A stretch of DNA of 32,328 bases from Candidatus Woesearchaeota archaeon (lineage in GTDB: Archaea > Nanobdellota > Nanobdellia > Woesearchaeales > DSVV01), in the NCBI GenBank assembly GCA_018303325.1, contig JAGVYH010000071.1, forward strand, positions 1 to 32,328. The letters are read 5' to 3'. The position numbers and the translations under genes were made by a program. Shown here piece after piece: positions 5,590 through 30,162 of this stretch. The number at the start of each line of letters is the position of its first letter. The stretch's first letter is position 1. The notes below the pieces were generated by a model. The model did no database searches and was not told the origin of the DNA. It saw nothing but the letters and a program-made list of their open reading frames with translations.

Positions 5590-6351
5590 TCAAATTAATG
5601 TCGCTTGTGAAAGTCTTTTTCTAGCAATATCTAAATATTTTTTCTCTTTCTCTATTCCTATGGAATTTCTACCCATCGTTTTAGCCATTACTGATGTAGT
5701 ACCAGAACCAACAAAAGGATCTAAAACTAAATCTTCCTTATTTGTACATGATAGGATAATTCTTCTTAATAATTCCTCTGGTTTTTGTGTTGGATGTTCT
5801 CCAGCCCATTTTTCTTTTCTTGGTGTTAAGGTTATACTCCAGACATTTCTTGTTTGCTTTCCTTTTGGATTTATGGGATCTTCTATATCTTTTTTTGTTT
5901 GTTCATAATTAAAAGTCCACTTTGTTTTAGAATGATTTTTAACAGCCCATATTAAATGTTCTGTACTCTCTGTGAACATTCTACACGTTATGTTAGGTTG
6001 TGCATTTGGCTTAAACCACACAATGCTATTATTTATCTTAAAATCTAATTGATGTAAAATAAACCCCATCAAATAAATATTATGAAAAGAACCACAAACC
6101 CAAAAACTTCCACCATGTTTTAAAATTCGCATACATTCACTGATCCATTTTAAACTAAAATCAAAATATTCATCTTTTGAGAATATATCCCACGCTTCTT
6201 CTAAAGTTATGTGTTTTGAATATTTCCAACCTAAACCGTTCTTTTTAGCTAAACCATAAGGTGGATCTGCAAAAACTAAATCTACTGATTCGTCTGGAAT
6301 TTTCTTTAGTTCTTCTAAACAATCTCCCAAAATAAATTTATGTTCTGTCAT
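5590..6351 (-). CDS. Beta-class DNA adenine/cytosine-N4 methyltransferase
   Basis: The 253-residue enzyme carries the catalytic motif IV DPPY at 29-32 near the N-terminus. The SAM-binding motif I (DPFVGSGTT, 211-219) and HPTQKP (186-191) lie near the C-terminus. This order defines the beta group of amino-methyltransferases, of the M.HinfI/CcrM type. It would transfer a methyl group from SAM to an exocyclic amine in a short DNA target; the recognition sequence cannot be deduced. Length is compact, with no extra C-terminal DNA-binding domain. It starts 7 nt after the stop of the AbrB-like gene, so the two are probably co-transcribed, and it is convergent with the 173-aa gene. It could be one half of a restriction-modification pair or an orphan maintenance enzyme. 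Confidence 0.92.
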   Translation of the reverse strand: MTEHKFILGDCLEELKKIPDESVDLVFADPPYGLAKKNGLGWKYSKHITLEEAWDIFSKDEYFDFSLKWISECMRILKHGGSFWVCGSFHNIYLMGFILHQLDFKINNSIVWFKPNAQPNITCRMFTESTEHLIWAVKNHSKTKWTFNYEQTKKDIEDPINPKGKQTRNVWSITLTPRKEKWAGEHPTQKPEELLRRIILSCTNKEDLVLDPFVGSGTTSVMAKTMGRNSIGIEKEKKYLDIARKRLSQATLI

Positions 6352-6655: not shown

Positions 6656-7534
6656 ATGGAAAACGTAATAAAATGCAAACATTGTAACGGAAAGAACTTT
6701 ATTAAGAAAGGGCTTAGGCAAACACAAAATAGGGGAAAAATACAGGTTTATAGGTGCTTAGATTGTGGTAAGAAGTTTACCAATGATGAAGGCTTTTATC
6801 GTATGCGAAACAACCCTGAAAAGATAACATCAGCTATTGACCTTTATTTTTCTAACCTTTCAAGCAGAAAGGTAAGGAACTATTTTAGACGCCATTTAGA
6901 GCATAATTCAAGTCATGTAACTGTTTTAGATTGGGCTAGAAGATATACATTAAAAGTGCATAATTACGTCAATAAACTGCAACCAAAACTAAGCGGTCAA
7001 TATTATGCAGATGAGACTGAAATAGATAGGGGAAAAGTTAATGACAAGTTTTGGTGCTGTGTTGATTGGGAAACTAGGTTTATTGTTGATACTCATTACA
7101 GCTTAACTTCAAATATTGAAGAAGCTAAAACCTTTCTGGAAAAAGTAAAGCAAAAAGGAAAGCCAAAATACATTCAAACTGATTCAGCAATGTTTTATCC
7201 ACAAGCCATGAGAAAAGTATTTTCTTCTCATTCATATCATACTACTTATCATGGAGAACCAAGAGTAAAGCATATAGTTAATAACGTACATAAAACAGGA
7301 AGGCATAACGTAAGAATTGAAACTGTCTTTTCTAAGATAAAAGATAGAGTTGATGACTTTAGGGGATTGAAAGCTCTTTGGTCTGCTCCCATTTTGATGG
7401 CTGGAATTGTTTTACAGCATAACTACATAGAAGAGCATACAACGACAGGAAAAGTGCCTTGCGAATTGGCTAATCTGAAACTTGAAACAGGACAGAATAG
7501 ATGGTTAAGATTAATAAGATTGGCAAGTAATTAA
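6656..7534 (+). CDS. IS6/IS240-like DDE transposase with zinc ribbon
   Basis: The 292-residue protein starts with a four-cysteine zinc ribbon (C7, C10, C34, C37), then a helical HTH-like segment (about 55-110), then an RNase H-fold catalytic domain. The likely triad is D119 (YADETEI), D176 (IQTDSAMF) and E222 (VRIETVFSKIK), with K229 in the expected helix and a downstream FRGLKALWSA block typical of IS6/IS240 proteins. It would cut and join element ends in the 22-bp inverted repeats. The start at 6656 lies 27 nt after a TATA box. Its last four bases overlap the convergent membrane-protein ORF, so no private IS end follows the gene. The ends used are probably those of the larger element. Family placement could also be an unclassified archaeal DDE group. 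Confidence 0.85.
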   Translation: MENVIKCKHCNGKNFIKKGLRQTQNRGKIQVYRCLDCGKKFTNDEGFYRMRNNPEKITSAIDLYFSNLSSRKVRNYFRRHLEHNSSHVTVLDWARRYTLKVHNYVNKLQPKLSGQYYADETEIDRGKVNDKFWCCVDWETRFIVDTHYSLTSNIEEAKTFLEKVKQKGKPKYIQTDSAMFYPQAMRKVFSSHSYHTTYHGEPRVKHIVNNVHKTGRHNVRIETVFSKIKDRVDDFRGLKALWSAPILMAGIVLQHNYIEEHTTTGKVPCELANLKLETGQNRWLRLIRLASN

Positions 7535-9627: not shown

Positions 9628-10737
9628 TTATTTTTGATATACTAACTGTCCAACCCTCATATGTTCTGCTCTTAATGCACCTGCACATGATAAAAAATAA
9701 AAATTCCAAGTTCTATGCTCACTTGTTTCAAGTTTAATAGTTCCTGTATCTATTGCTTTGTTTAGTCTTTCATTCCAATTTAATAAAGTTTTCACATAAT
9801 GTGATGTCATGTCCTGAAATGCAATTTCATCTAATGGTTGGAAATATTCTGACGCTGCTGAATGAATTGTATTGTACGGAGGCAGTTCATGATTTGGAAA
9901 AATATGCTTACGTATCCATGGGTTACTTAATATCATATTAGTTGGAGAATAAAGTGTTTGGAATAAACATCTCCCTGTTGGTTTCAATGCGTGGTTTACA
10001 GCTGTCATAAACTCTCTATAATTTTTATGCCCTATATGTTCTAAAATACCGACTGCTGTCACCTTATCAAACCTATTTGGTGAAAATAAACGAAGAATAT
10101 CACGATAGTCGCAGATATACACTTTCACTTTTCTTCCTTCACAAAGCTTCCTTGCATAATTTGCCTGCTGCTCAGACAAAGTTACCATAGTTACATTAAC
10201 ATCAAATCTCTCGCTCATATATAACGCTAAACCACCCCATCCGCCGCCAATGTCTAAAACTTTATCATTCATTCTAATATCTAATTTATTACAGATCAAT
10301 TCCAATTTATTTTCTTGAGCTTTTTCAAGATTATCTGTTTTTTCAAAATAGCCGCAAGTATACTGATTATAATGATCTAAAAATTTTAAGAATAAATCTG
10401 GATTTAAATTATAATGTTTATCAATAACTTTATGTGAACCTGTCCTGTCTTGTAAATTGTGTATACTTCTGGAAAATGAACCAATCAAATCATAAACTCG
10501 CGCTAAAGTTGGATTATAAACTCCAGCCTTTAATAATTTAAAAACAACAACATCAACAGAATGAGAATTCCATAAACCATCTATATAAGAATCTCCCAAT
10601 CCTATAGATCCATTAACTAATACTTCCCTAAAAAATTTGTCGTCATGAACTACAATCTCATTATGATTACCATCATCAGAATCTCCTAATTGTAATCCTG
10701 CTTTTTCAAAGAGATGAGTTACAACTTGTTTTATCAT
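9628..10737 (-). CDS. Cyclopropane-fatty-acyl-phospholipid synthase homologue
   Basis: The 369-residue protein has the CFA-synthase N-terminal domain (FFREVLVNGSIGLGDSYIDG, about 35-55). A class I SAM methyltransferase domain follows, with YNLNPDLFLKFLD, QYTCGYF, LDIGGGWGGLA, the EHIGHKNY motif and a C-terminal NFYFLSCAGALRA block. The reaction is methylene or methyl transfer from SAM to a lipid double bond at the membrane surface. The usual GCGWGG loop is GGGWGG here, so the cysteine implicated in bicarbonate binding in E. coli is missing, while the Glu (SEYF) and Tyr (FYF) positions remain. Archaeal lipids lack fatty acyl chains, so the substrate may be an unsaturated isoprenoid lipid or lipid taken from a partner. 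Acquisition from bacteria is plausible. Confidence 0.88.
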   Translation of the reverse strand: MIKQVVTHLFEKAGLQLGDSDDGNHNEIVVHDDKFFREVLVNGSIGLGDSYIDGLWNSHSVDVVVFKLLKAGVYNPTLARVYDLIGSFSRSIHNLQDRTGSHKVIDKHYNLNPDLFLKFLDHYNQYTCGYFEKTDNLEKAQENKLELICNKLDIRMNDKVLDIGGGWGGLALYMSERFDVNVTMVTLSEQQANYARKLCEGRKVKVYICDYRDILRLFSPNRFDKVTAVGILEHIGHKNYREFMTAVNHALKPTGRCLFQTLYSPTNMILSNPWIRKHIFPNHELPPYNTIHSAASEYFQPLDEIAFQDMTSHYVKTLLNWNERLNKAIDTGTIKLETSEHRTWNFYFLSCAGALRAEHMRVGQLVYQK

Positions 10738-10879: not shown

Positions 10880-11932
10880 CTATTTGTATTCTTTCTCAAC
10901 AAGTTCTAAATAATAAATACGGTTAAATATTATCATCAGATATGCAACTAAACCGCTTAAAACAAAGATAGATATACTAATTATGCTCATTAATTTCATA
11001 TTCTGACCAAACTTGAAGATGATAAATGAAGCGCCAACACCAATCAAAGAAATGATTCCGCTATAAATCAGGAATATAATCAGCGAAATAATTAACGGTT
11101 TATAAGCATATAACTTTGACATAGCATTCCATGCCATTATAAACGAGTGGGTTATTTCTTTGTTTTGCTTTACATTTTGACAAAAAAATAAATGAAGCAG
11201 ATTAATGAACAGATATGCAAAGATAAATACAACCACAAAACCTGCAATCAATGCTGTCTTTTTGTATTCTGGCTTTATCATATATGTTAATGCCGAAGAT
11301 AAAATCACATTTATTAGAAATACAATGAAATAAAAAATAAGATTGGTAAGATAGAATTTCTTTAAGTGTGGTGTTTCAAATGATATCTTGTTTTTGTAGC
11401 TGAACATAATATCCAGCACCTTTTTTTTTGTAAATGTATAAACTAAAATCAGAATCATCAGATTTATTACTGCAACTGGTATAATTATCAGGAGAATTAA
11501 ACTAGATGCAACACTTATTTTAGTAAACATATAATTAAATGCGCCATTAACCAGCATTATTGCCGCAAGAAAAATAAAATCAACAAGAAACATAAGCAAT
11601 ATATTTTTCGGGGTTGAGATGAACAGCTTGAACGCATTGAAGAAAGTTGTTTCTTTGATGTAAAAACTTGTTTCTTTGAGAATGGTTGAGAATCTTTTAA
11701 AATTTAGAACTGCTTTATTTTTTATACTAATTATTTTGTATTCTTCTTTTAAGTTATCTCCTTTTGTTTTTTCTTCTTTTTTCCCCTCTTTTTTTAAGTT
11801 GTCTTCTTTTGTTTTTTCTTCTTTTTTCTCCTCTTTTTTTAATGCGGCTTCTTTTTTATCTTCATAAAAGTCTTTCTTCTCTTCAGATAAATCTTTCTTA
11901 ACTTTTTTAACACTCTGCTCTTTTTTTTGCAT
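10880..11932 (-). CDS. Six-helix membrane protein with K/E-repeat N-terminus
   Basis: The 350-residue product begins with about 70 extremely charged residues. These contain two copies of a 16-residue block (KKEEKTKxDNLKxE pattern, about residues 33-66) encoded by a near-identical tandem DNA repeat around 11745-11840. About six hydrophobic helices follow (near 110-130, 145-170, 195-220, 230-255, 285-310, 320-345). The C-terminal half resembles the generic hydrophobic DUF-type membrane proteins common in DPANN genomes; I cannot name a family. The start at 11932 is the only ATG before the charged region. The gene is divergent from the AAA+ ATPase, with 103 bp between the starts. Confidence 0.8.
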   Translation of the reverse strand: MQKKEQSVKKVKKDLSEEKKDFYEDKKEAALKKEEKKEEKTKEDNLKKEGKKEEKTKGDNLKEEYKIISIKNKAVLNFKRFSTILKETSFYIKETTFFNAFKLFISTPKNILLMFLVDFIFLAAIMLVNGAFNYMFTKISVASSLILLIIIPVAVINLMILILVYTFTKKKVLDIMFSYKNKISFETPHLKKFYLTNLIFYFIVFLINVILSSALTYMIKPEYKKTALIAGFVVVFIFAYLFINLLHLFFCQNVKQNKEITHSFIMAWNAMSKLYAYKPLIISLIIFLIYSGIISLIGVGASFIIFKFGQNMKLMSIISISIFVLSGLVAYLMIIFNRIYYLELVEKEYK

Positions 11933-16162: not shown

Positions 16163-17200
16163 TTATCTTCTTACTGCTGGTGTTGGATTATACTTATCAA
16201 TTATGTTTGTGTCTAATTTATATTTAGCAGGGTCAACAATTTCGGGTGAAGTAAATGTTAATACACCATATCGTCCATTTTCCCATCTGACAGCCCAATG
16301 TAAGTTTCCGTCATTCTCATCACTATCGATTTTTACAACTCTTTCTGCTCCTAATAAAGAATAGCTATCATTCTTTGCACTCTTACACGCTTCAATATTC
16401 TGTTTATCGAAAGGAATCATCTTAACAGCTTTGCTATCTTGAAGAACTCTTGCAAAAGCGCCATTGTATCCTTCTATAACCTTAGTTCCTAATTCTTCAA
16501 CTTCTTTGTCAACATCCCAATAATATTTATACTTTGGTGCTCCACCTGCACATGGCTCTCCAGCCCTAGAAAGTATTGTTGTAAACATGGAACATGTTAA
16601 ACAAACAGGATCAATTTGTCCATTATAATTGTGTTCCTTTTCATCAACCAATGCTGCTAATGCAACAAGATTAATGCCAAGCTTTCCTTCTCGTTGTAAT
16701 TCTATGGCTTTTTGCACAATTGCTTGTGTATTATGATTCAAAGCACTCCAACGCTTTTCTGTTATTGCAAGATAAATACCGTCTACAATACCAGAAATGA
16801 AACGTGCTTCATTATCTTTAAAATCCCAACCTGTTTGTGGTTTTGGGTAATAAACAGTTGGCCGTTCTGGTCCCATTCCAAATACATGACTATGATAAAA
16901 ATCATCAAGTCTTCGCAATGCTTCAGAATGTTCTGTTCCGTTAGGTTTTCCTTCTTGAAGCGATTTAATAGCAAAAAAATAATTTGCTAAATTATCCAAG
17001 CCTTTTTCTTTATATTCAAGGGTCATCCCATAATATCCTTCCAGCACTCTGTCGCGATTAACTTTAATATCAACATCTGCTACAGCTTGCCATGCAACAT
17101 TTTTCAAAGCTTTTTCTACTTTTCTCATTGCTTTAATAATATTCCACTCAATGGCAATATAGAAATCAAAATTAGTTACATGAATATCGATTATTGTCAT
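16163..17200 (-). CDS. Uncharacterised 345-aa protein
   Basis: I do not recognise this protein. I place the start at the ATG at 17200 (MTIIDIHVTNFDF) because a strong TATA box (TTTATATATAAG, about 17219-17230) lies about 25 nt upstream. A longer frame opening at 17287 would cross that promoter. The protein is soluble in appearance, with helical stretches (RDRVLEGYYGMTLEYKEK, AIVQKAIELQREG), a Cys-containing segment (DPVCLTCSMF then GEPCAGGA) that could bind metal, and a beta-rich C-terminus (WAVRWENGRYGVLTF). It is followed by tandem hairpins. Base composition is slightly less AT-rich than neighbours. Context with structured intergenic DNA on both sides hints at an acquired island. Confidence 0.75.
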   Translation of the reverse strand: MTIIDIHVTNFDFYIAIEWNIIKAMRKVEKALKNVAWQAVADVDIKVNRDRVLEGYYGMTLEYKEKGLDNLANYFFAIKSLQEGKPNGTEHSEALRRLDDFYHSHVFGMGPERPTVYYPKPQTGWDFKDNEARFISGIVDGIYLAITEKRWSALNHNTQAIVQKAIELQREGKLGINLVALAALVDEKEHNYNGQIDPVCLTCSMFTTILSRAGEPCAGGAPKYKYYWDVDKEVEELGTKVIEGYNGAFARVLQDSKAVKMIPFDKQNIEACKSAKNDSYSLLGAERVVKIDSDENDGNLHWAVRWENGRYGVLTFTSPEIVDPAKYKLDTNIIDKYNPTPAVRR

Positions 17201-17337
17201 ATTGATTTGTAAAACATATCTTATATATAAATAATTATTTCTTTTATTATGCCCTTTTAGTACATAAAAAAAGTCTAAAACAGGCAAATCTAGACCATTT
17301 AGTTATACTCTTATCTCTAATAATTTTTTAAGGTACA

Positions 17338-18254: not shown

Positions 18255-18989
18255 ATGAACTATCAAGATACAACTATAATCATTCCAACATTTAACGAGG
18301 AGAAGAATATAGCTCAGCTTATTGACAAAATTAAGAAACTTTTGCCAAAAGCGAAGATAATTGTAAGTGATGATGGCTCATTGGATAAAACGCAGGTAAC
18401 TGTAAAAAAAGCTGCAAAAAAGTGGGCAAAAGGATCAAAAGAAGAAAAAGGAGAAAAAGAAGAAAGCGTAATTTTGTTGGACAGAACAAAAACCCTTGTT
18501 CATGGCCTTACTGTCAGTGTAATAGATGCAATTAACTTATGCAAAACATCTTATTTTGTAGTTATCGACGCTGATTTTCAGCATCCGCCTGAAAAGATAA
18601 AAGAGGTAGTAAATAAGTTAAGGGCTAGCGTGGAGATTGTCGTGGGTAACAGAATTAAGGTTAGTGAAGATTGGTCTGTTTCAAGAATAATTATTTCTAA
18701 AACAGCGTATATGCTCGGGTATTTGCGGCTGTTATTAAAGAAATTTCCAAAATATGATATTGTCAGCGGTTTTTTTGGAGGAAGAACAGAGCTAGCTAAA
18801 CAGGTTATTGCACAGAATTATTCAAAATTTGAATTAAAAGGTTACAAAGTGTTGTTTGATATCCTCAAATACCTGCCATCAAATGCAAAAATAGATAAAG
18901 TGGATTATGAGTTTGGCATAAGAAAAGCAGGGCAGTCAAAACTTAACAAAAAGGTTATGTTTTATTATTTAAGGTCGCTGTTTAAGTGA
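18255..18989 (+). CDS. Dolichol-phosphate mannosyltransferase-like GT2 enzyme
   Basis: The 244-residue GT-A glycosyltransferase opens with TIIIPTFNEEKNIAQLI, then IVSDDGSLDKT, the metal-binding region VVIDADFQHPPEKI (near residue 110) and a C-terminal RKAGQSKLNKK motif characteristic of Dpm1/DPMS enzymes. It has no C-terminal membrane domain, so it would act as a soluble or peripheral protein, moving a sugar from a nucleotide donor to a polyprenyl phosphate. A Lys/Glu-rich insert (about residues 58-75) lies after the DDG motif. A TATA-like AATATTTAAA about 29 nt upstream supports the ATG at 18255. It probably supplies lipid-linked sugar for the GT-C proteins encoded at 20.9-30.2 kb. Confidence 0.9.
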   Translation: MNYQDTTIIIPTFNEEKNIAQLIDKIKKLLPKAKIIVSDDGSLDKTQVTVKKAAKKWAKGSKEEKGEKEESVILLDRTKTLVHGLTVSVIDAINLCKTSYFVVIDADFQHPPEKIKEVVNKLRASVEIVVGNRIKVSEDWSVSRIIISKTAYMLGYLRLLLKKFPKYDIVSGFFGGRTELAKQVIAQNYSKFELKGYKVLFDILKYLPSNAKIDKVDYEFGIRKAGQSKLNKKVMFYYLRSLFK

Positions 18990-19106
18990 TGTTTTTGGTT
19001 TAATTTGTTTGCCTAAATTTAATTTATATTTGTATGACAAATGATATAAATCAATATAAACCTGTTTAATTTCTTAACACAATATTGAATTAGCGAGGTG
19101 TTTTAT

Positions 19107-20036
19107 ATGCGTAATTTTACATTATCTGGATTAGCTGTTGTTTTAGCAAGTGCTTTAGGTTGCAGCGGGGAAGAACCACAAGAATCACAAGATGAATTAT
19201 TAGAAAGACCAGCTATTATTCATCCTAGCCAACCAACACAGACACAACAAAATCAACAAGTCTTAATTACATCTTCAAATTATTTTTTAGCTTATCCAAC
19301 ATTACAAGATTTAGAAGATGCAGTTAACTTGTCAACTGATGATTTAAAATGGAAAGAGGATTTATTAGCGCTTTCTGCAAAAGGTGATGAGTTTCATGAG
19401 AGAATACAAAGTTCTTTAGGAATGTCCCTTTTGTATTTAAATGGATTTGAATATAGCTTTAAGAATAAACAAGAAAATTATGAAACTGCATTATATTACC
19501 TAGATTGGGTGAGAACAACTATAGAAAGAGAAGTTCAACTCAATGCCAATGGGACTACTGAATTTATTACCTACGGACTTAATGCAAATAGAGAAATATC
19601 AGACATTTTGCATTCTGCTCAAGATAAAGGTCATTTAAGTAATGTCGGAAAAGTTATAGGCTATTTAGTGAATGCTTCAGTTATTTCACATTATGTGTTT
19701 AACTCTTTTGGTTTTTTTTATGAGACTGACCTTGAAAATGATGGTGCAAGAGTTGCTTTTGAAAACAAATTAGAGGACAAAGCTAAGCTTGAAGAAATGA
19801 GGGATGAAGCAAAAGTAGCATATAATGCTTTACCATTAGATATTAAGTTAGATATAATTGGATTTGTTGGAAAACAGGTTCATAATGGGTTAATGGAAAG
19901 TACATTAAAACTATTAGATAAACCTCAAGATGCACCAAGAGCCCCATCTGAAAAAGAAGAATTTTACCGTCAATTTGGGCAAGAATTGTTTGCAAAATAT
20001 GGGTTAATGGATACAACTCAACAAACTAATAATTAA
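19107..20036 (+). CDS. Putative lipoprotein of unknown function
   Basis: The ATG at 19107 is preceded by an RBS-like GCGAGGTG and gives a 309-residue precursor. A GTG nine bases earlier lies inside that site and is less likely. The N-terminus MRNFTLSGLAVVLASALGC is a short signal peptide with a lipobox (SALGC), followed by SGEEPQESQDE and a Pro/Gln/Thr-rich linker (to about residue 50). The mature part looks largely helical (YETALYYLDWVRTTIEREV, EEMRDEAKVAYNALPLDIKL). I do not recognise a family. It is probably anchored outside the cell membrane. Lipobox proteins are known in archaea but the anchor chemistry here is inferred. Confidence 0.8.
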   Translation: MRNFTLSGLAVVLASALGCSGEEPQESQDELLERPAIIHPSQPTQTQQNQQVLITSSNYFLAYPTLQDLEDAVNLSTDDLKWKEDLLALSAKGDEFHERIQSSLGMSLLYLNGFEYSFKNKQENYETALYYLDWVRTTIEREVQLNANGTTEFITYGLNANREISDILHSAQDKGHLSNVGKVIGYLVNASVISHYVFNSFGFFYETDLENDGARVAFENKLEDKAKLEEMRDEAKVAYNALPLDIKLDIIGFVGKQVHNGLMESTLKLLDKPQDAPRAPSEKEEFYRQFGQELFAKYGLMDTTQQTNN

Positions 20037-20860: not shown

Positions 20861-22585
20861 TTAATTGTCTACTTTATAAATCCTTTTCACTTCCTCATAC
20901 TGTTTTTCAAATACAAGCTTGTTTGAGTTAGAATCTTTTATTTTTTCAAACAATTCTGGCCTTAATGATTCCTCGCATTTCTTGTCAAAGCACATAAACG
21001 GCGCTTCAATGAAGACGACAGCTTTTACCTGTGGCATTAGCTGAGGATCTGTTGTCCATTTATTGTATATGTCATAGCCTTCTTCGACAGAAAAGTAGAA
21101 AGGAATCATCTTTATGTCAGTATAAGCAACATGCACTGGATCACTTGTTAAAATTATACCTTGATTTATGCCCTGATAATTGTCAGAAAAGAATTTATAA
21201 TATTCTTTTATAATCTCTGGCTCATCTTTAGGGGAAGACAAAAACTTATTGTAATCTTTGTGCAGGGAAAGTGTTCCAGCGTAGACAATATATATTATCA
21301 ACAGCAAGTATGGCAGTTTTTTTAGCCAAAACTGCTCTTTTGTATTTTGCTCTCTTGCATTTTCCCTTAAATCAAGCGAGTTGATGTACTTAAACACATA
21401 AACCAATCCATATCCACTTAGAATTGCTGTAAACGGCAACAGCATCAATCCAAATCTTTCCTGTTTGTTTATCATGAATGTAAGATATGCAAGATAAACA
21501 ATAAATGTTATTACAATAATTATGCTTTCATTATAATAACTCTTTTTTTCCAGTTCAATAATGTCTGAAAATTCAGCCGGCTTGTTGAATGTATAGGTTT
21601 TATTTCTTAACTTTTTGTATTCGTTAATTCTTGTTAAAACTCTTACATACATATCTCTTAAAAGAATAAACAGGCCAATTAAGCCAAATATCAAAAACAG
21701 ATTTTGTATGTATAAATTGAAAGGATAATAAAATATGTTTAATAATAAGTCATTAATTGCGTAAGCTGGATTGCCTTGATGAAGAGAAGCTTTTAGTATA
21801 GGGAATAATGCAGACTCATACATTAAGTAATTAAAGATAAACAATATACCCACCAACGGAACAAACCCACCAATATATTTTGCAGAATTAATTAATAATT
21901 CTCTGAATCTTGTTTTTATATCTGTTCTTCCGAGCAGGAATTCTGTAATTAATGCCGCAATGCAGCACACTAAAATAAGGCCTTGCGGATATCTAAAAAT
22001 AAAGGCTATCGAACTTACAACACCAGCAATGACAAATCTTCGTTCAATAAAAAAATATACAGCCAGCAGAACAAAAAATGTTGAGGGTATCTCTGTCATT
22101 AATCTAAGACTATTGTAAAAAAACAAAGGTGTTACTGCGTAAATAAATGCGCTTATTACAGCAATCTGTTTGTTGAATAATTTTAATGAAATTAAGTAAA
22201 CCAAAATGATTGTCCCTGCTGCGAATAACATTTCAATAATTCTGTCAGTAATTATAATATTGATAGCATCAATACTTATTTTTGAGCCAAGTTTCCATAC
22301 AGCACCAAACAACAAAGGCAGACCTAATGGCCTTATCTCTTCCCATAATCCAACCTGTCCAAAAGAATAAATATACTTGCCAATACCAATGTAAACTGCT
22401 TCATCCCATAATACGAAGTGAAACCTTAATAATAAATGCAGAATGTAGACGAGAATGAAAACAATTACTATTACATAAATCCAGTTAATTTTGGTAAGCA
22501 GATTCTTAATCTCGTCTAATTTACCTGAATCTTTTTTATCTGTGTTTTTTTCCGAGTTTCCTGAAATCTTACTCAAACTTGACAT
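20861..22585 (-). CDS. GT-C-type membrane glycosyltransferase (PMT/ArnT-like)
   Basis: I choose the ATG at 22585 (MSSLSKISGNSEK, 574 residues) because GGTGAT precedes it; an ATG 12 nt earlier is possible. After a charged N-terminal tail there are about ten to twelve membrane helices and then an extracytoplasmic C-terminal domain (about 430-574). The first loop contains LWDEAVYIGIGKYIYS and RPLGLPLLFG, the acidic and Arg/Pro signature of GT39/GT83 family enzymes that use polyprenyl-phosphate sugars as donors. A cytoplasmic-like charged loop lies near residue 320. The frame overlaps the end of the upstream 787-aa gene by 17 bp, so they are translationally coupled. Confidence 0.88.
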   Translation of the reverse strand: MSSLSKISGNSEKNTDKKDSGKLDEIKNLLTKINWIYVIVIVFILVYILHLLLRFHFVLWDEAVYIGIGKYIYSFGQVGLWEEIRPLGLPLLFGAVWKLGSKISIDAINIIITDRIIEMLFAAGTIILVYLISLKLFNKQIAVISAFIYAVTPLFFYNSLRLMTEIPSTFFVLLAVYFFIERRFVIAGVVSSIAFIFRYPQGLILVCCIAALITEFLLGRTDIKTRFRELLINSAKYIGGFVPLVGILFIFNYLMYESALFPILKASLHQGNPAYAINDLLLNIFYYPFNLYIQNLFLIFGLIGLFILLRDMYVRVLTRINEYKKLRNKTYTFNKPAEFSDIIELEKKSYYNESIIIVITFIVYLAYLTFMINKQERFGLMLLPFTAILSGYGLVYVFKYINSLDLRENAREQNTKEQFWLKKLPYLLLIIYIVYAGTLSLHKDYNKFLSSPKDEPEIIKEYYKFFSDNYQGINQGIILTSDPVHVAYTDIKMIPFYFSVEEGYDIYNKWTTDPQLMPQVKAVVFIEAPFMCFDKKCEESLRPELFEKIKDSNSNKLVFEKQYEEVKRIYKVDN

Positions 22586-24932
22586 TAATATCACCAAATG
22601 TAACTTGCGCAGGATATTCTCTTAATATTAATTGTCCGTAGGGATAAGATGCGCTGTGAAAAAGAACTGCCCTGTTTTCTTTTGAAAGTTTCAGCCATGA
22701 AACCAGCTTGTCATAATCATCAGAATTAAAAACTCTTGTGGCAATAACTTTTGCATTATTGTTCACTGCTGCATTAACTATCTTGTCCATTTGTGAGAAG
22801 TTATTTATTGTTACATATATTAAATTAAGGTTTATACTTTTTGACAATTCGCTGAAATAATTAGTGGGAGTCTGATAATACCAAACAGCATATGGCAGGT
22901 TTGTTGCATTTGTTACAATTATTTTTTCGCTTAATTTTATTTTTATCGGCTGGTTTCCTATCACTGCTTTTATTACTATTTTTTCTTTTATCATCATTTC
23001 TTCATCTTTTTCATCAATTGCTTTAATTTGTTCTCCTGTTTTGGTGATTTCTTGTTCTTCCTTTTTTATGATTTTTACTGGCGGAGATGTTAATAGATTT
23101 ATATTTTTGCCAAGTGCTAAGTAACTATACTTATCAGGAAGACAGATAACTGTTTTTCCTTTGTTTGATAAATATGCAGCTGCCTTGACTTTGCCGGGAT
23201 GATCACAGTCACTAATAACAATGCTTGCATTTTTTCTGATTGTCTGCTCGACGAGCATATTCACGCCATGAGTATCAACAATAATTGCAATATCCTTTCT
23301 CAAAAATCTTGTTGTTGGATACATTATCTTGTCAAAAGGAACTTCAAACATGAATACATTATTTTCATTAGGAGCATACCATTTTCCATCTTTTTCCATT
23401 ATTATTGTGCCTACTGCCAATTCATGCTGCGCTCCTGTTTGTTTTAATTCTTTAACTCTTCCGCCTTCATGCCATCCAATATCTTCTCTCAGCTCTGTTT
23501 TATTATATTTCAGTCTCTCTGAAAATATAGTTAATATATTGTTGGAATATGGTGAAGCCAATTGCTGTCCTAGCCAATCTCTTGTAACCCTGTCAACCTG
23601 AGAAATCATTATATCTTTGTCTGTAATTTCAATTCCAGAAGCTCCTATAATTAATTTATTTTTATCAAGTGGTTTGTTTATCTTTTCAGGTGAGATTTCT
23701 GATATTTCAAATTCTATAGGCAATGGTTTATTGTTTGCAAGCGCTAAATCAATCTCTGCTCTTTTTGTATTGCCTGAGTTTTTCCACGATTCAGCAGCAA
23801 GCTCAAGAAACGCTTTTTTATTTCTGCCGCAGCCAATTGATACTGTCGTTTCATAAATTATTGCCTTAAACTCTTCGCTGTCAGTTTCAAGAGCAGCTTG
23901 GTCATAATATTTTAAAGAATCACACATCTTGTCAGTATCCTGCATAAGCCTGCCAAGCAGGAATGTTAACTCTCCTTTTAAAAATGAATTCTTTTGATTA
24001 TTTAATCTATTTAATCTATTTAATTCATTTAAGTTATTTGTATTATTTAATTCCTTTGATTTATTCGATTCATTAGTGTTATTTAAATTATTTAAACTAT
24101 TAGAATTATTTAACTTATTAAGATTGTTTAATTTATTTAATTCATTTGCATTATCAGTATTGTTTAAGCTTTTTTCAACATATTCAATATATTGTGTTTT
24201 GTTTACACCAATGCTGTCAAACAAATAATTCATATCATATTTTCTCCCATATTTGTCTGTTGAAGCATTTCTTATTATCTCTTTAATTGTAGCATTTATC
24301 TCTCCGCCGTATTTAAACCCATCTACTTTGATGTTATTAATAATCATAGTTGGAGCCTTTGTAATATTATAACTTTTTACTAACAAAGGAACAAGAACCT
24401 CGTCTTCATAATCCTTGTCTAATGAAAGAACAACTACATTTGTCTTATACGAAAGGCTAATATCTTCCAGAATATAACCCTCTGTAATGCTGTCAGCATC
24501 ATCCTTTTCATAAAAAAATAAAATTGTTACATAATCTGTGTCACATTCTTTGTTGAGCTTATTTATCAGTGTATAAAATTCTAGTTCAAGAAGGAAATAA
24601 TGTCTTTTTAGATAATCAAAATCTATTTTTTTTATTAAACTTTCACTCCAGTAATTTGTCAGGGCAATACCTACTTTATGCATGTCTGTCTTTAAATCAA
24701 AAAACCGCTGGTTCATAACTCCACATTTATCTCCGCCGACAGAATCAATAAATTGCTCCTCTAACAAGTACGCTGTTTTGTCTGTTTCATGATTCTCTAT
24801 AACTCTGGTAATCTCATCCATGCGATATAAATCGAGTACATAACTTATCAAAAGCCCAATAATAAAGATAGATATTGTTAATATTAAGCTGGTTACAAAA
24901 ATCTTTTTTTTAATGTTTGTCTGTGATTCCAT
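22569..24932 (-). CDS. Membrane-anchored multidomain protein, thioredoxin-fold-like N-domain
   Basis: The 787-residue protein has one N-terminal membrane helix (about 12-34). A domain to about 220 (VTILFFYEKDDADSI, NVVVLSLDKDYEDE, YNITKAPTMIINNIKV) looks like a thioredoxin-type fold without the CxxC, and is shared with the 211-aa neighbour. Next come an Asn/Leu-rich low-complexity stretch (about 260-315, encoded by TTTAAT-type repeats at 23998-24170), a helical repeat-like region (about 315-395), and two alpha/beta regions to the end (IAIIVDTHGVNMLVEQTIRK, ASIVISDCDHPGKVKAAAYL). I cannot name the C-terminal family. It is probably exported and membrane-tethered. It lies between glycosyltransferase genes, suggesting a role in surface glycan handling. 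Confidence 0.8.
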   Translation of the reverse strand: MESQTNIKKKIFVTSLILTISIFIIGLLISYVLDLYRMDEITRVIENHETDKTAYLLEEQFIDSVGGDKCGVMNQRFFDLKTDMHKVGIALTNYWSESLIKKIDFDYLKRHYFLLELEFYTLINKLNKECDTDYVTILFFYEKDDADSITEGYILEDISLSYKTNVVVLSLDKDYEDEVLVPLLVKSYNITKAPTMIINNIKVDGFKYGGEINATIKEIIRNASTDKYGRKYDMNYLFDSIGVNKTQYIEYVEKSLNNTDNANELNKLNNLNKLNNSNSLNNLNNTNESNKSKELNNTNNLNELNRLNRLNNQKNSFLKGELTFLLGRLMQDTDKMCDSLKYYDQAALETDSEEFKAIIYETTVSIGCGRNKKAFLELAAESWKNSGNTKRAEIDLALANNKPLPIEFEISEISPEKINKPLDKNKLIIGASGIEITDKDIMISQVDRVTRDWLGQQLASPYSNNILTIFSERLKYNKTELREDIGWHEGGRVKELKQTGAQHELAVGTIIMEKDGKWYAPNENNVFMFEVPFDKIMYPTTRFLRKDIAIIVDTHGVNMLVEQTIRKNASIVISDCDHPGKVKAAAYLSNKGKTVICLPDKYSYLALGKNINLLTSPPVKIIKKEEQEITKTGEQIKAIDEKDEEMMIKEKIVIKAVIGNQPIKIKLSEKIIVTNATNLPYAVWYYQTPTNYFSELSKSINLNLIYVTINNFSQMDKIVNAAVNNNAKVIATRVFNSDDYDKLVSWLKLSKENRAVLFHSASYPYGQLILREYPAQVTFGDINVKFE

Positions 24933-25004
24933 TTTTAGTTTGTTAATAACACATAAGTCTATTGTTTTGTCTCTTTTGTCTGTGATTCGTTTTTTCTCTT
25001 TTCC

Positions 25005-25640
25005 CTAACTTACAGTATTAGCTATTTTTTCATAACTTGCAAGTCCTTTATTTACATCGTCATAATCAATAACTATTGCCGGCGGTTCTGAAATTCCATA
25101 ATAATCCTCTAAAAAGGTTAGTTCCTTTGTATAATTGAATTCCAGCGCAAACACATTAACAGGATAGATTTTACCAATCTCATCCAGAATTTTACCCTGC
25201 TCTTTTGAATCAGGATTATTTTTACCATAATAAAATAATATAACGTGCTCATCACTTTTGCAGTTTTTTTTGAATTGATTGTATAAGAGATAAGTCCTTA
25301 TCTGCATCAAATGGAATTTCTTTTTCAGAAGTTTATAATTATCTTTGCCTAAATTTGATTCTGAGGTTGGTTCGCTTAACATTATACCTAAGTTATACAG
25401 CTCACTTGACAACGAATTAATCCTTTCTTCAGACAAACTGCAGTCTTCAGATGCTCCCAAAAGCTCCTGCTCAACCAAGAAACTTTCAGTATTAAGCTCA
25501 AGATTTTTTATAAACCTTGCAATTTCCTCCTGCTCTTTGCTTTCAATGTGTTTGCCAAGCAAAATGCCGATAAAAAAAACTATTGCAATGACGACAATAA
25601 TTACAAGGAATGTCTGTTTCATATATTTTTCTTCAATCAT
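25005..25640 (-). CDS. Membrane-anchored thioredoxin-fold-like protein, paralogue of neighbour
   Basis: I place the start at 25640 (MIEEKYMKQTFLVII), five bases after the stop of the GT2 gene and behind a GGTGA ribosome site, giving 211 residues. The longer frame from 25697 would overlap the GT2 gene. One N-terminal membrane helix (about 8-28) is followed by a charged helical region with one Cys (SEDCSLSEE). A thioredoxin-like core follows (HVILFYYGKNNPDSKEQG, VNVFALEFNYTKELTF, then GISEPPAIVIDYDDV with a cis-Pro-like PP). No CxxC is present, so redox activity is doubtful. It matches the N-terminal domain of the 787-aa protein in layout (NKLNKECD versus FKKNCKSDEH; ITKAPTMII versus ISEPPAIVI). 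Confidence 0.78.
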   Translation of the reverse strand: MIEEKYMKQTFLVIIVVIAIVFFIGILLGKHIESKEQEEIARFIKNLELNTESFLVEQELLGASEDCSLSEERINSLSSELYNLGIMLSEPTSESNLGKDNYKLLKKKFHLMQIRTYLLYNQFKKNCKSDEHVILFYYGKNNPDSKEQGKILDEIGKIYPVNVFALEFNYTKELTFLEDYYGISEPPAIVIDYDDVNKGLASYEKIANTVS

Positions 25641-25645
25641 ATTAT

Positions 25646-26908
25646 TCACCACTTTTTCTTTAGTTTTAATGCCTCTTCTGTTAATGCACCCAGCCAATGC
25701 AGTGCTGTCAATACAGGCAAAATTACAAAAAATGCCCAGATTGTAAAAGGGTATCTTATTTTTTCCCTTACTTCTTTATGCGCTAAATAAAATATAAGTA
25801 TTCCTAAAAGCAGTGCAATTATAACTGGTATCATTATCTTTGCATTGTATGTTAAAATTATATCTTTCAGTTTTGTATACCCCAAAATATGCGTCCAGAA
25901 ATATCCTTTTATGAGCATTGCTCTTCTTATGAAATAATAAATATTAGACAAGCTGCCATAACTTACAAAGACAACACTGCCTATAAGCAGAAGAATGCCA
26001 ATCACGTTTAATGGAAGCTGGAAATATGCCAGAAATCCAAATTTTTTATTCAAAAACATCTGCCTGTATTTTTTATGGCTCTCTACAAAACCTCTGTACC
26101 ATCTAACTCTCTGCCTCCATAATTTTGAGAAATTGTCCGGAACATTGGTATATGTTATTGCTGATGTTTCAATGTCAATGTCATATCCATTATATTTTAA
26201 TCTCATCGCAATCTCAAAATCTTCAGTCAAACTTTTTTCATCAAATCCTTTAACAGTTTTTAAAACATCTGTTCTGTAAACACTTAACACACCTGGCGTG
26301 ACAGAAAGAGTATTAATGAATGCCATTAATTTTCTTGTAATTATAGCAAGAATATATTCCATCCTTTGTAATTTTTCATAAATGTTTTTTGGCTCATTGA
26401 CCTTTATGGCGCTTATAGTTGCGCCGATATTAGCGCCATCAAAATGCGGAATCATTTTGATAAGAGAATCTTTCTCAATGTAAGAGTCTGCATCCAAACA
26501 GGCAAAGAATTCTGTGCTGCATTTTTCTAACGCAACGTTTAATGCTTTGGCTTTACCTTCGTTTTTTTTGTTGATAACTTTAAAATTATATTCTTTTTCA
26601 TAATAATATTCTTTCTCATATTTCTTTCTTAATTCTTCAGCAACTTCTTTTGTTCTGTCAGTTGAGCCGTCATTTACAACAATAATCTTAATCTTATTCT
26701 TTGGATAATCCAGTGCAATAACTGAATTTATTGTTTTTTTAATCCCAAGTTCCTCGTTATATGCAGGAATAACTATTGTGACGCTAGGAAGGTCTTTTTT
26801 TGTTACATGTTTTGGCTCCCAAAGATAAAGAAAACTAACCCAAACTATTGTAATGTACAAGCTGATGAATACAACTATTGCAATGATTAATGCAGTTATG
26901 TCAATCAT
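25646..26908 (-). CDS. Membrane GT2 glycosyltransferase (cellulose-synthase-like)
   Basis: The 420-residue processive-type glycosyltransferase has an N-terminal helix (5-30) and a GT-A catalytic domain. Motifs are VTIVIPAYNEELGI, VVNDGSTDRTKE, CLDADSYIEKDS (DxD), SLTEDFEIAMRL (TED catalytic base) and QRVRWYRGF (QxxRW), followed by three to four C-terminal helices. This matches membrane GT2 enzymes that polymerise or transfer hexoses from nucleotide sugars at the cytoplasmic face. It sits in the middle of the minus-strand block, five bases from the thioredoxin-like gene, which suggests functional linkage. Confidence 0.92.
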   Translation of the reverse strand: MIDITALIIAIVVFISLYITIVWVSFLYLWEPKHVTKKDLPSVTIVIPAYNEELGIKKTINSVIALDYPKNKIKIIVVNDGSTDRTKEVAEELRKKYEKEYYYEKEYNFKVINKKNEGKAKALNVALEKCSTEFFACLDADSYIEKDSLIKMIPHFDGANIGATISAIKVNEPKNIYEKLQRMEYILAIITRKLMAFINTLSVTPGVLSVYRTDVLKTVKGFDEKSLTEDFEIAMRLKYNGYDIDIETSAITYTNVPDNFSKLWRQRVRWYRGFVESHKKYRQMFLNKKFGFLAYFQLPLNVIGILLLIGSVVFVSYGSLSNIYYFIRRAMLIKGYFWTHILGYTKLKDIILTYNAKIMIPVIIALLLGILIFYLAHKEVREKIRYPFTIWAFFVILPVLTALHWLGALTEEALKLKKKW

Positions 26909-27015
26909 AATTCTACCTTTTAACTTATCTCCCCTTTAACTTAATAATGAACCTAATAACTATCTGTTAATTAGTGAATTTCTATTAAGTTGCTATTTCT
27001 TTCACTTATTTGTTT

Positions 27016-28542
27016 TTAACCTGATTTCTTATACTCCCAAACTTCAGCATAAGGATTAAGATAAACCCGCCTAAATTTATCTGAATTGTCAAACAAGAAC
27101 AGCAATCCCTGATTAGGCTTGTCCCAAACCAAACCTTCTTTCATTTCTTTACTAATAAATATTAAATTTATATTAAATCTTGTCATCAATTCTTCAACTT
27201 CTTTCAAGGATCTTGACTGAAAAATTGTGTTTGTAATGCCCTTAAAATAGCTGTAATCTTCAATTAAGTTTTGATTTGAATCTATAAGAACTTTTAACTG
27301 AGTATGATATTTAATCATGTGCCCATATTCAGGATGAGACAGAATAACTGAATCAACTGGCTTATTGCTCTTTATCCAGCCAAATGCATCAATAAATTCC
27401 TGTGTCGGCGGCATTTCTGCAACTCTGCTTATGAATGAGACGCCTGAAAACAAGATTCCTAATATAATTATTAAAAATGTAAAATTTTTTATAATTTTTA
27501 ATTCCCATTTTATTTCTAATAAATAGATTAACCCAAACGCAGAAAGAATTATCACTATAAAATTTAAATAGTTGACATATTGATGATAAATAAATGAAAA
27601 TACAAATAGTACCAAACATGAAACATATATCCATGAATATTTCTTTTCATACTTTTCCGGCCATGTTTTTATTAACCCAAAAATTGTAAGAATAATTGCA
27701 AAGATGCCAAACCCTTCGCTTGCACCAAGATCAGTTACATAACTCTGCAATATATTTTCTGAAAGAATGCTTGTTTTTATAAAACCATATTTGTAATATA
27801 TCGGCAGATTGAAATATAATGAAATTCCAATCATTACTATACTTAATCCAATGATTTGCCAATATTTTTTATTGACAAATAGTTCATAACCCAAAATAAA
27901 CATGACTGCAATTAATGTATGAAATATTCCGAATACAGATATTATTACGTAAGGTATTAATGAAAGGTATTTTACTGGTAAATATTTTAAACTGGTTGTT
28001 TTTGAAGTATAAAGATAAAAACCCAGCAGTTGGAGGAATATTACGAAATATATCTGGTCAGGCATCAAAAATGTCTGTAAAAATAATGGCGAAAGCACGA
28101 GAAGCAAAAGAATAATGAATCTTTGCAGATATGAAACTTTAAATCTTTCTAAAATCCTGTCAAATAAAAATACTGATGCAAGACCAAACATTATTAATAA
28201 TCCTAACATTATCCCTGTTAATGAAATATATGGGATATATCTTCCAAATGCAGCAATAATTAAGTGATAGGGTGTTATAATTAATGGCCTAAATGGTATG
28301 ATCAATTTATCATTAAAATTCGTTTTTGAAAGGCCAGCCTGTGAAAAAACCTCATTAACAGACAATTCTTTATTAAGAAGCTGTTCTGAGATACTTAAAT
28401 GATAGTAGCTTTTGTCCCCTGGCAGGATTAGCTCTCCATAATTAACATATCTAATCATATGCGGAACAATTAAAAATATAGCTGTTATCAGTATAATGTA
28501 CAAAATATAATTCTTTTTGGTTATGTAGCTTATTTCTTCCAT
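27016..28542 (-). CDS. GT-C-like polytopic membrane protein
   Basis: The 508-residue protein has about eleven membrane helices in the first 390 residues and a soluble C-terminal domain (about 390-508, starting SVILSHPEYGHMIKYHTQ, ending VYLNPYAEVWEYKKSG). The first extracytoplasmic loop contains LPGDKSYYHLSISEQL, an acidic/Tyr-His signature reminiscent of STT3/AglB-type and other GT-C enzymes. I cannot tell whether it transfers single sugars or whole oligosaccharides. The C-terminal layout (SHPEYGHMI, then FNINLIFISKE) parallels the 502-aa neighbour (APINDGHLIAYF, then NGINYVLFTPN), so the two are probably paralogues. The flanking gaps of about 110 bp on either side suggest one transcription unit. 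Confidence 0.82.
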   Translation of the reverse strand: MEEISYITKKNYILYIILITAIFLIVPHMIRYVNYGELILPGDKSYYHLSISEQLLNKELSVNEVFSQAGLSKTNFNDKLIIPFRPLIITPYHLIIAAFGRYIPYISLTGIMLGLLIMFGLASVFLFDRILERFKVSYLQRFIILLLLVLSPLFLQTFLMPDQIYFVIFLQLLGFYLYTSKTTSLKYLPVKYLSLIPYVIISVFGIFHTLIAVMFILGYELFVNKKYWQIIGLSIVMIGISLYFNLPIYYKYGFIKTSILSENILQSYVTDLGASEGFGIFAIILTIFGLIKTWPEKYEKKYSWIYVSCLVLFVFSFIYHQYVNYLNFIVIILSAFGLIYLLEIKWELKIIKNFTFLIIILGILFSGVSFISRVAEMPPTQEFIDAFGWIKSNKPVDSVILSHPEYGHMIKYHTQLKVLIDSNQNLIEDYSYFKGITNTIFQSRSLKEVEELMTRFNINLIFISKEMKEGLVWDKPNQGLLFLFDNSDKFRRVYLNPYAEVWEYKKSG

Positions 28543-28653
28543 TATGACACCATTTTTTATGTTCTATCTTTCATACTATTTTTCATATATTCATAATACA
28601 ATATCCACAATCTTCAATATTTTCAATAACACTTTCTCAATAGCACTCTTAAT

Positions 28654-30162
28654 CTATTTTGCCATCATGCTCTTTATGATAACACACTTGTTTTTGTACA
28701 ATGTTGTCACCCATAATTCTGTTTCAGTAAAACATTCCTTGTCTACGAATTTCAGTCCTTCTAGACTGTATTCTTCTTTGGTGTTTGGTGTAAATAAAAC
28801 ATAATTAATTCCGTTTTTATGAAGTATCTCACTTGCTTTTATTTTTGAAATAGTAGTATATAACTCATCAATATCTTTAACTACTTCATTTGCATCATCC
28901 AAGAAAAGGAAATTAGTATCGCCAAAATTCTTTCTTTGGGCAAAATAAGCTATTAAATGGCCGTCATTTATCGGAGCGCCAATTCTTGCATCATTAGGTG
29001 TTAATTCTTTTATCTTAATCAAATCATCAATTAAAGAAGGTTTTGTTGATTCCTCTACTGATCTATTAGCAAGTGAAATTGACGGAAGAATCGAGGTAAG
29101 CACGAATACAATACATATTAAAACAAATAATGGGGTTTCCAGCTTTGAAAATTTTGTTGTTCTTATATAATTGTTTAAATGATGGTATGCAATACCAAAT
29201 AATATTACAAGCATCACGCTAAGATAAATTAATGCAAGCTCTAGTTTTATCAGCCTTAGCCATAACAATATTGTTGTGGTCATTACAAAGCTAATCAGCA
29301 GATATACTTTTTTATCTTTTAAATTGAATAGATAATAATAAATTATGAATATTCCTAAAATAAACGGGATTATGCCTATTTGATATATTGCCTGCCATAT
29401 TGAAATCTGATGAAAATAAGCAGCAGCATATTTTATTGGCATATTCTGCCATATAAAACTAAGCCCGTGCTTAAGAAATGCTTTTTTGAAAATGAGCAAG
29501 TACATCCACAACATTATAAATGCAGAGAACAGGGTTATTTCTACTTCAGACCTGTTCAATTTGAAGTCTTCTATTTTTATGAGAATAAGGTAAACTATCA
29601 GGCTTAATATTAATAAGATTACAGATGTGTGGGTTAACATGAACAAAACGATTGCAAGAAGAAAATATTTCAGATTAGTTTCCTGTTCTATATTAATGAA
29701 AAGATACAATAACAATACAGTTAAAGGTATTACCACAGAATAAACACTGATTGTATTTAATGTTGTGTAAAAATAAACAGGGATAAATGCAGAGAAGATT
29801 GACGTAAATATTGCTATTTCCTCATTTTTTGTTATATCCTGAACTAACAAATATACTGCAAACACGATTGTAGAGGCAAATATATTCGGCAATACTTTTG
29901 CTATAACTATTGGAGAAAAGATTTTTGCAAAAATGGCCAGTATATAATGAAATAAAGGAAGAAAGACATAAACCCTGCCGCCAAAACTTAAAGGGTCATT
30001 ATACAAAGGCACAAAATGCTCTTTGATATATTCTACCTGCCTTAAAGCGAAATAAGCATCATTATCACTGAAATAAGTTGTTTCAAAAGCATAATATATT
30101 CTTATTCCTGAAACTATTATGAATATACTTAATAATATTAATACTATCCATGATTTTCTCAT
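28654..30162 (-). CDS. STT3-like GT-C membrane glycosyltransferase
   Basis: The 502-residue protein has one N-terminal helix, then a first external loop with TTYFSDNDAYFALRQVEYIK and PLYNDPLSFGGRVYVFLPLF. The D-N-D plus Y-x-A-L-R-x-V-E pattern resembles the DxD loop of STT3/AglB oligosaccharyltransferases. About ten more helices and a C-terminal domain (about 385-502) follow. The WWDYG motif of true STT3 is not seen, so a related dolichol-sugar transferase is the safer name. It is the first gene of the minus-strand block. The upstream gap to radB contains TATA-like sequences for both directions. Confidence 0.82.
   Translation of the reverse strand: MRKSWIVLILLSIFIIVSGIRIYYAFETTYFSDNDAYFALRQVEYIKEHFVPLYNDPLSFGGRVYVFLPLFHYILAIFAKIFSPIVIAKVLPNIFASTIVFAVYLLVQDITKNEEIAIFTSIFSAFIPVYFYTTLNTISVYSVVIPLTVLLLYLFINIEQETNLKYFLLAIVLFMLTHTSVILLILSLIVYLILIKIEDFKLNRSEVEITLFSAFIMLWMYLLIFKKAFLKHGLSFIWQNMPIKYAAAYFHQISIWQAIYQIGIIPFILGIFIIYYYLFNLKDKKVYLLISFVMTTTILLWLRLIKLELALIYLSVMLVILFGIAYHHLNNYIRTTKFSKLETPLFVLICIVFVLTSILPSISLANRSVEESTKPSLIDDLIKIKELTPNDARIGAPINDGHLIAYFAQRKNFGDTNFLFLDDANEVVKDIDELYTTISKIKASEILHKNGINYVLFTPNTKEEYSLEGLKFVDKECFTETELWVTTLYKNKCVIIKSMMAK

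Follow-up and report, generated by a model that had tools for sequence, protein, structure and literature searches.

Glycosyltransferases of the GT-C class act on lipid-linked sugars, and processive GT2 synthases such as those of the BcsA-BcsB and PgaC-PgaD systems work together with a second protein, either an exoplasmic one anchored in the membrane or a small membrane protein. In bacterial O-antigen and capsule loci, the genes for glycan synthesis are replaced in place between conserved flanks. The eukaryotic oligosaccharyltransferase (OST) combines an STT3-type GT-C enzyme with OST3/OST6 (TUSC3/MAGT1), and OST3 homologues are cited for Asgard archaea (PMC10307638). arCOG00563 is described as a family distantly related to PMT and STT3 and linked to AglD-like GT2 genes (PMC5898192).

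The locus analysed here belongs to contig C13 in an archaeal genome bin of 1.97 Mb assigned to Candidatus Woesearchaeota; the window is the whole stretch of 32,328 nucleotides that was analysed. Six minus-strand genes occupy positions 20861-30162 and, read from 30162 to 20861, follow the order GTCA, GTCB, GT2, TRX-short, TRX-long and GTCC, with RadB and uS2 genes adjoining the locus. The three GT-C-like proteins, the membrane GT2 and the two anchored proteins of the original prediction are thus all in place, and its description of the region as a surface-glycan locus is supported. The features, called by a simple ORF rule, are the following.

28654..30162, minus strand: GTCA, 502 aa, about 11 transmembrane (TM) segments, first gene of the cassette, PMT_2 match at 4e-7
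27016..28542, minus strand: GTCB, 508 aa, about 10 TM segments, GTCA paralogue and predicted STT3/AglB-related GT-C
25646..26908, minus strand: GT2, 420 aa, 4 TM segments, membrane glycosyltransferase of apparently processive type, PF00535 match at 6e-32
25005..25640, minus strand: TRX-short, 211 aa from the ATG at 25640, ORF extendable to a TTG at 25697
22569-24932, minus strand: TRX-long, whole ORF, one N-terminal TM helix and a large extra C-terminal module
24288..24932, minus strand: N-terminal part of TRX-long (residues 1-215), comprising the TM helix and a CxxC-less thioredoxin-like domain
22569..23999, minus strand: TRXlC (from about residue 312 to 787 of TRX-long), alpha/beta domains preceded by helical repeats
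20861..22597, minus strand: GTCC, 578 aa, about 10 TM segments, optional last gene, PMT_2 match at 6e-11
18255..18989, plus strand: small GT2, 244 aa, PF00535 match at 4e-24; the best NCBIfam models, AglJ, PpgS and PgfS, all score below cut-off

The tight or overlapping spacing noted earlier was confirmed for the locus, with the exception of the 52-nt overlap between TRX-short and GT2, which exists only if TRX-short starts at the TTG. A conserved ATG at 25640, 5 nt past the GT2 stop codon, is probably the actual start, so that the large overlap in the ORF list is an artefact of the TTG start. TRX-long and GTCC overlap by 29 nt (from the TTG start) or 17 nt (from the next ATG). Within TRX-long, an Asn-rich low-complexity linker (NKLNNLNKLNN...) at 24000-24175, largely missing even in close relatives, joins the two domains.

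Several neighbouring genes can be mentioned in passing. A cyclopropane-fatty-acid-synthase-like protein (9628-10737; CMAS, 1e-62) would be surprising should this archaeon have ether lipids, and is a possible lateral acquisition. Three proteins, encoded at 19098-20036, 16163-17287 and 10880-11932, have no Pfam or NCBIfam match, and the first of these has a lipobox-like N-terminus (LASALGC). An IS240/IS6-type DDE transposase (6656-7534) lies close to an N6/N4 DNA methylase (5590-6351). Some 25 loci share a conserved gene for a protein of about 154 aa, which is situated immediately past the downstream end of the cassette and is encoded on the other strand (e.g., L061:12908-13372).

The gene set GTCA-GTCB-GT2-TRX, with GTCC as an optional member, recurs across Woesearchaeales and in other orders of the class, and a description of this cassette was not found in the literature searched. 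Because the identical gene order is found in dozens of family-level groups, it cannot be attributed to chance, and the expectation that the genes would be conserved together is borne out. Of 193 genomes in the order, 145 contain the TRX domain; for GTCA the figure is 191 of 279 genomes in the phylum, a minority of these being weak matches that could represent other GT-C proteins. GT2 proteins of 220-245 aa similar to the small GT2 of the window are encoded near GTCC in several loci; the small GT2 resembles polyprenyl-phosphate sugar synthases and might supply donors to the GT-C enzymes.

In profile searches of the PDB, STT3, PglB and AglB come first both for the GTCA family (best match at 1.8e-9) and for the GTCB family (AglB at 8.5e-7); with GTCB of the window itself, no Pfam family scores above the cut-off. 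The two proteins are paralogues (hhalign, 7e-45) and match AglB at 2.7e-12 (GTCA) and 2.9e-11 (GTCB), in an alignment with woesearchaeal AglB that covers the GT-C membrane domain and reaches into the start of the C-terminal core. Given that GTCC aligns to AglB with a similar value (8.5e-11), hhalign alone is not specific for STT3 kinship, and the PDB profile searches are the more specific evidence; judging from these, GTCA and GTCB are distant relatives of STT3, AglB and PglB with a GT-C membrane domain. They differ from AglB and STT3, as well as from proteins of the arCOG00563 type, to which they are likened by description only, in forming a pair of paralogues, in lacking the WWDYG motif (0/77 GTCA and 0/79 GTCB proteins) and in being encoded with TRX and a GT2 of apparently processive type. 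The invariant residues of GTCA are Y37, D56, C477 and C493, both cysteines being close to the C-terminus, and acidic residues are frequent, albeit not invariant, in its first external loop.

The best PDB matches of the GTCC family profile are mannosyltransferases and ArnT, so that GTCC appears to be a GT-C protein of the PMT/ArnT/GPI-mannosyltransferase type and was rejected as a candidate OST.

The AlphaFold2 model of TRX-short (44 sequences, mean pLDDT 89.9) begins with a long helix containing the TM segment, continues with a helical hairpin and ends in a C-terminal beta-alpha-beta-alpha-beta-beta-alpha domain, which Foldseek matches to thioredoxins (probability 1.00, E 3e-5). Profiles built from the TRX alignment retrieve thioredoxins from the PDB at 4e-7, and single-sequence PDB searches with either TRX protein yielded only noise. 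TRX-short and TRX-long have one N-terminal TM helix each and are paralogues (29% identity, E 1e-23), and the thioredoxin domain of TRX-long is accordingly assigned through its alignment with TRX-short. Alignment with relatives reveals no CxxC in either copy of the window: where the relatives have CPDC, CPEC, CPSC and the like, the window copies show a two-residue gap. Hence the proposal of two paralogous, single-helix-anchored proteins with a thioredoxin fold lacking CxxC stands, the fold having been modelled directly for TRX-short. C67 and C127 of TRX-short, which lie outside the active site, are invariant in the 44 sequences and could form a disulfide across the hairpin.

With OST and its Asgard counterparts the cassette thus has in common a membrane-tethered, outside-facing thioredoxin fold that is encoded with STT3-related GT-C proteins and, in many relatives, has CxxC. 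The resemblance does not extend to kinship with OST3/OST6: the OST3_OST6 family is not among the Pfam matches listed for TRX, and no OST3 or TUSC3 chain is among its listed PDB profile or fold matches. The topology also differs, the single helix of TRX being N-terminal, whereas in OST3/OST6 the thioredoxin domain is followed by four TM helices. The comparison with OST3/OST6 is a loose functional analogy, lacking kinship in sequence or specific fold.

The GT2 family is characterised by the invariant residues D84, D139xD141, E229-D230 and Q266-R-x-R-W270 (41 sequences). GT2 of the window matches the PgaC/IcaA model with 162 bits, under the cut-off of that family, and the family profile matches cellulose, chitin and hyaluronan synthases; it also matches ceramide glucosyltransferase, and QxxRW occurs in such non-processive GT2 enzymes as well. 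From the motifs we infer a processive synthase. Of 115 cases, 97 have GT2 as the gene immediately preceding TRX in the same orientation, and in 33 of these the two genes share an identical 7-nt overlap. As the Woesearchaeales loci were picked by TRX or TRXlC matches, and the counts are conditional on these, other orders of the class were sampled through GTCA, and in that sample GT2 directly precedes TRX in 15 of 20 loci. In nine tandem loci (those with two TRX copies), GTCB, not GT2, is directly upstream of TRX, and all three genomes without a TRX-adjacent GT2 that were searched encode a GT2 homologue elsewhere (E 1e-95 to 3e-100).

Lineages have exchanged the GT2 and TRX genes in place as one unit and kept GTCA, GTCB and the flanking genes. 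Loci L061 and L081 are 84% identical in GTCA, 80% in GTCB and 78-86% in the downstream genes, but only 39% in GT2 and 23% in TRX. When nine tandem-type loci were compared with 24 others, the AU test on GTCA rejected a single clade of the tandem-type loci (p 1.6e-31), whereas in the GT2 tree these loci form one clade with support 100, and GT2 and TRX change class together. It follows that GT2 and TRX move jointly and independently of GTCA and GTCB, which is the strongest evidence obtained here on who partners whom. Taken together, gene order, congruence of the trees and in-place exchange, which do not by themselves amount to proof of physical contact, support TRX as a partner of GT2 rather than of a GT-C protein, contrary to the proposal that the TRX proteins are accessory subunits of the GT-C enzymes in the manner of OST3/6. 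A thioredoxin-fold protein thus appears to work for a synthase of the polysaccharide type, and no such combination was found in the literature searched. The cassette resembles BcsA-BcsB and PgaC-PgaD in pairing a GT2 that has the D, DxD, ED and QRxRW motifs with a membrane-anchored partner, and differs from both in the thioredoxin fold of this partner and in the presence of STT3-like GT-C enzymes in the operon. The replacement of GT2-TRX between conserved flanks likewise recalls the O-antigen and capsule loci, but here the boundary falls inside a set of four genes, between GTCA-GTCB and GT2-TRX, and the exchange is seen in DPANN archaea.

The best overall explanation of these observations, and probably the correct one, is a widely conserved cassette for surface-glycan assembly in Woesearchaeales and related orders, in which TRX is the dedicated partner of GT2 and the GT2-TRX half is exchangeable. 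Under this scheme, GT2 would, as its motifs suggest, form or lengthen a sugar chain on the cytoplasmic side of the membrane and pass it to the other side. TRX, anchored by its single N-terminal helix with the thioredoxin fold outside, would be the exoplasmic partner of GT2 to which the genomic data point, and might guide, fold or hold the product or the synthase, as BcsB does for BcsA. GTCA and GTCB, often along with GTCC, would act at the outer face, either by adding lipid-linked sugars or by transferring the product. Exchange of GT2-TRX would be expected if this half determines the structure of the surface glycan, glycan-type switching being the presumed reason for the exchange. The window represents the tandem type, in which TRX is duplicated, CxxC is absent from both copies and the second copy is fused to TRXlC, a module that often adjoins GTCC elsewhere.

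A bolder proposal, which we regard as unlikely, is that DPANN archaea possess, besides AglB, a second STT3-derived multi-subunit glycan transferase with a thioredoxin-fold subunit, whose GT2-TRX half is swapped like a serotype cassette and whose CxxC-less type has in TRXlC a new exoplasmic glycan-handling domain. Quite unlikely, too, is an OST-like complex in which GTCA and GTCB transfer a glycan onto protein or lipid on the outside and TRX is a subunit comparable to OST3/6, redox-active where CxxC is present and purely binding in the window. The profile matches of GTCA and GTCB to STT3, PglB and AglB, the existence of CxxC-bearing TRX relatives and the two invariant cysteines near the GTCA C-terminus agree with such a complex, as does a canonical AglB that accompanies the cassette in the stretches fetched for eight non-redundant loci (L046, L057, L068, L073, L076, L077, L078 and L121), which suggests a recurrent link to an N-glycosylation gene. 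However, TRX tracks GT2, not GTCA or GTCB, in both gene order and phylogeny; none of the 156 GTCA and GTCB proteins has WWDYG, and TRX differs from OST3/6 in topology and shows no similarity to it among the matches listed. Moreover, the genome already encodes a canonical AglB on another contig, C31; canonical AglB of the same order carries WWDFG, which is present in the seven cassette-neighbouring AglB proteins that were scanned. What holds of the OST analogy in the original prediction is therefore the relationship of GTCA and GTCB to STT3, AglB and PglB and the CxxC of most TRX relatives; the kinship, topology, motif and gene complement do not fit.

The distribution of CxxC bears on the role of TRX. 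Among 113 non-redundant loci, CxxC is found in 79 of the 81 that have a single TRX without TRXlC, in 4 of the 11 with one TRX plus TRXlC, and in none of the 21 with two TRX copies. A TRX tree built with the motif columns masked separates a group of 58 CxxC-less proteins from a group of 93 that includes all CxxC proteins and six without the motif. Within the CxxC-less group, 21 tandem short copies form one clade (support 99), and 19 long copies together with three further second copies form another (support 88), so that the TRX duplication and the TRXlC fusion each look like single events. Since CxxC is general in the thioredoxin superfamily, we infer that its absence is the derived state, the position of the root of the TRX tree not being fixed. 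Frequent shifts of locus label on the GTCA tree might be read as repeated parallel losses of CxxC tied to duplication; this is ruled out by the TRX and GT2 trees, which show one large CxxC-less clade and in-place exchange. A tie of CxxC absence to duplication only is likewise ruled out by the many single-copy TRX proteins without CxxC in other orders of the class.

These data also make it very unlikely that TRX acts on envelope proteins as an exoplasmic thiol-disulfide enzyme and owes its place in the locus to the outside cysteines of several proteins encoded there, with the CxxC-less copies decaying or repurposed. Such an enzyme would explain why most TRX relatives have CxxC where thioredoxins have their active site, and why C477 and C493 of GTCA are invariant, but these cysteines remain invariant where the TRX of the lineage has no CxxC, the CxxC-less proteins form a large and lasting clade, and an oxidase of general function would have no need to move together with a particular GT2.

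The large C-terminal extension of TRX-long was rightly singled out as a domain without a known relative. TRXlC is defined by the motifs IGWHEG, WYAPxE, DTHG, CDHPGK and LFHS (alignments of 17 and 36 sequences) and is modelled with high confidence (pLDDT 92.3, pTM 0.91); it has no credible sequence match in Pfam or the PDB, and the model yields only weak, partial fold matches, none of them good, and no match among viral structures. A relationship to periplasmic binding proteins was rejected, the best matches having a TM-score <=0.3 and rmsd >12. The module occurs fused to TRX, alone with its own TM helix, and fused behind GTCC (L046/L093). In 31 evaluable loci (6 further loci are at contig ends), GTCC is directly downstream of TRXlC in 15, no more than two genes away in 8, fused to it in 1 and not nearby in 7. 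The large extra domain of TRX-long, rather than its thioredoxin domain, is the portion linked to a GT-C. TRXlC matches also come from three bins labelled bacterial. For one of these (L102) the label is probably wrong because it contains the cassette and falls among archaeal loci in the GTCA tree; in the other two, labelled Aminicenantes (L113) and Thioploca (L114), TRXlC may be due to misbinning or lateral transfer.

It is highly improbable, albeit compatible with the GT2-TRX partnership favoured here, that TRX-long is itself an enzyme in which the thioredoxin part is only an anchor and TRXlC modifies the exported glycan (e.g., as a lyase, hydrolase or ligand-binding scaffold): the invariant E185, H251, D249, D273 and K277 of TRXlC are typical of an active site and the module has several alternative contexts, but it matches no known enzyme family and its likeness to type-1 periplasmic binding proteins is weak and partial.

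The genetics of surface glycans, by which the reduced cells of Woesearchaeota and other DPANN archaea presumably make contact with their hosts, is almost uncharacterised. TRXlC adds a conserved exoplasmic domain without a known relative to this picture, and with a defined core set of genes and an exchangeable half, the cassette might allow the type of glycan to be tracked from sequence.
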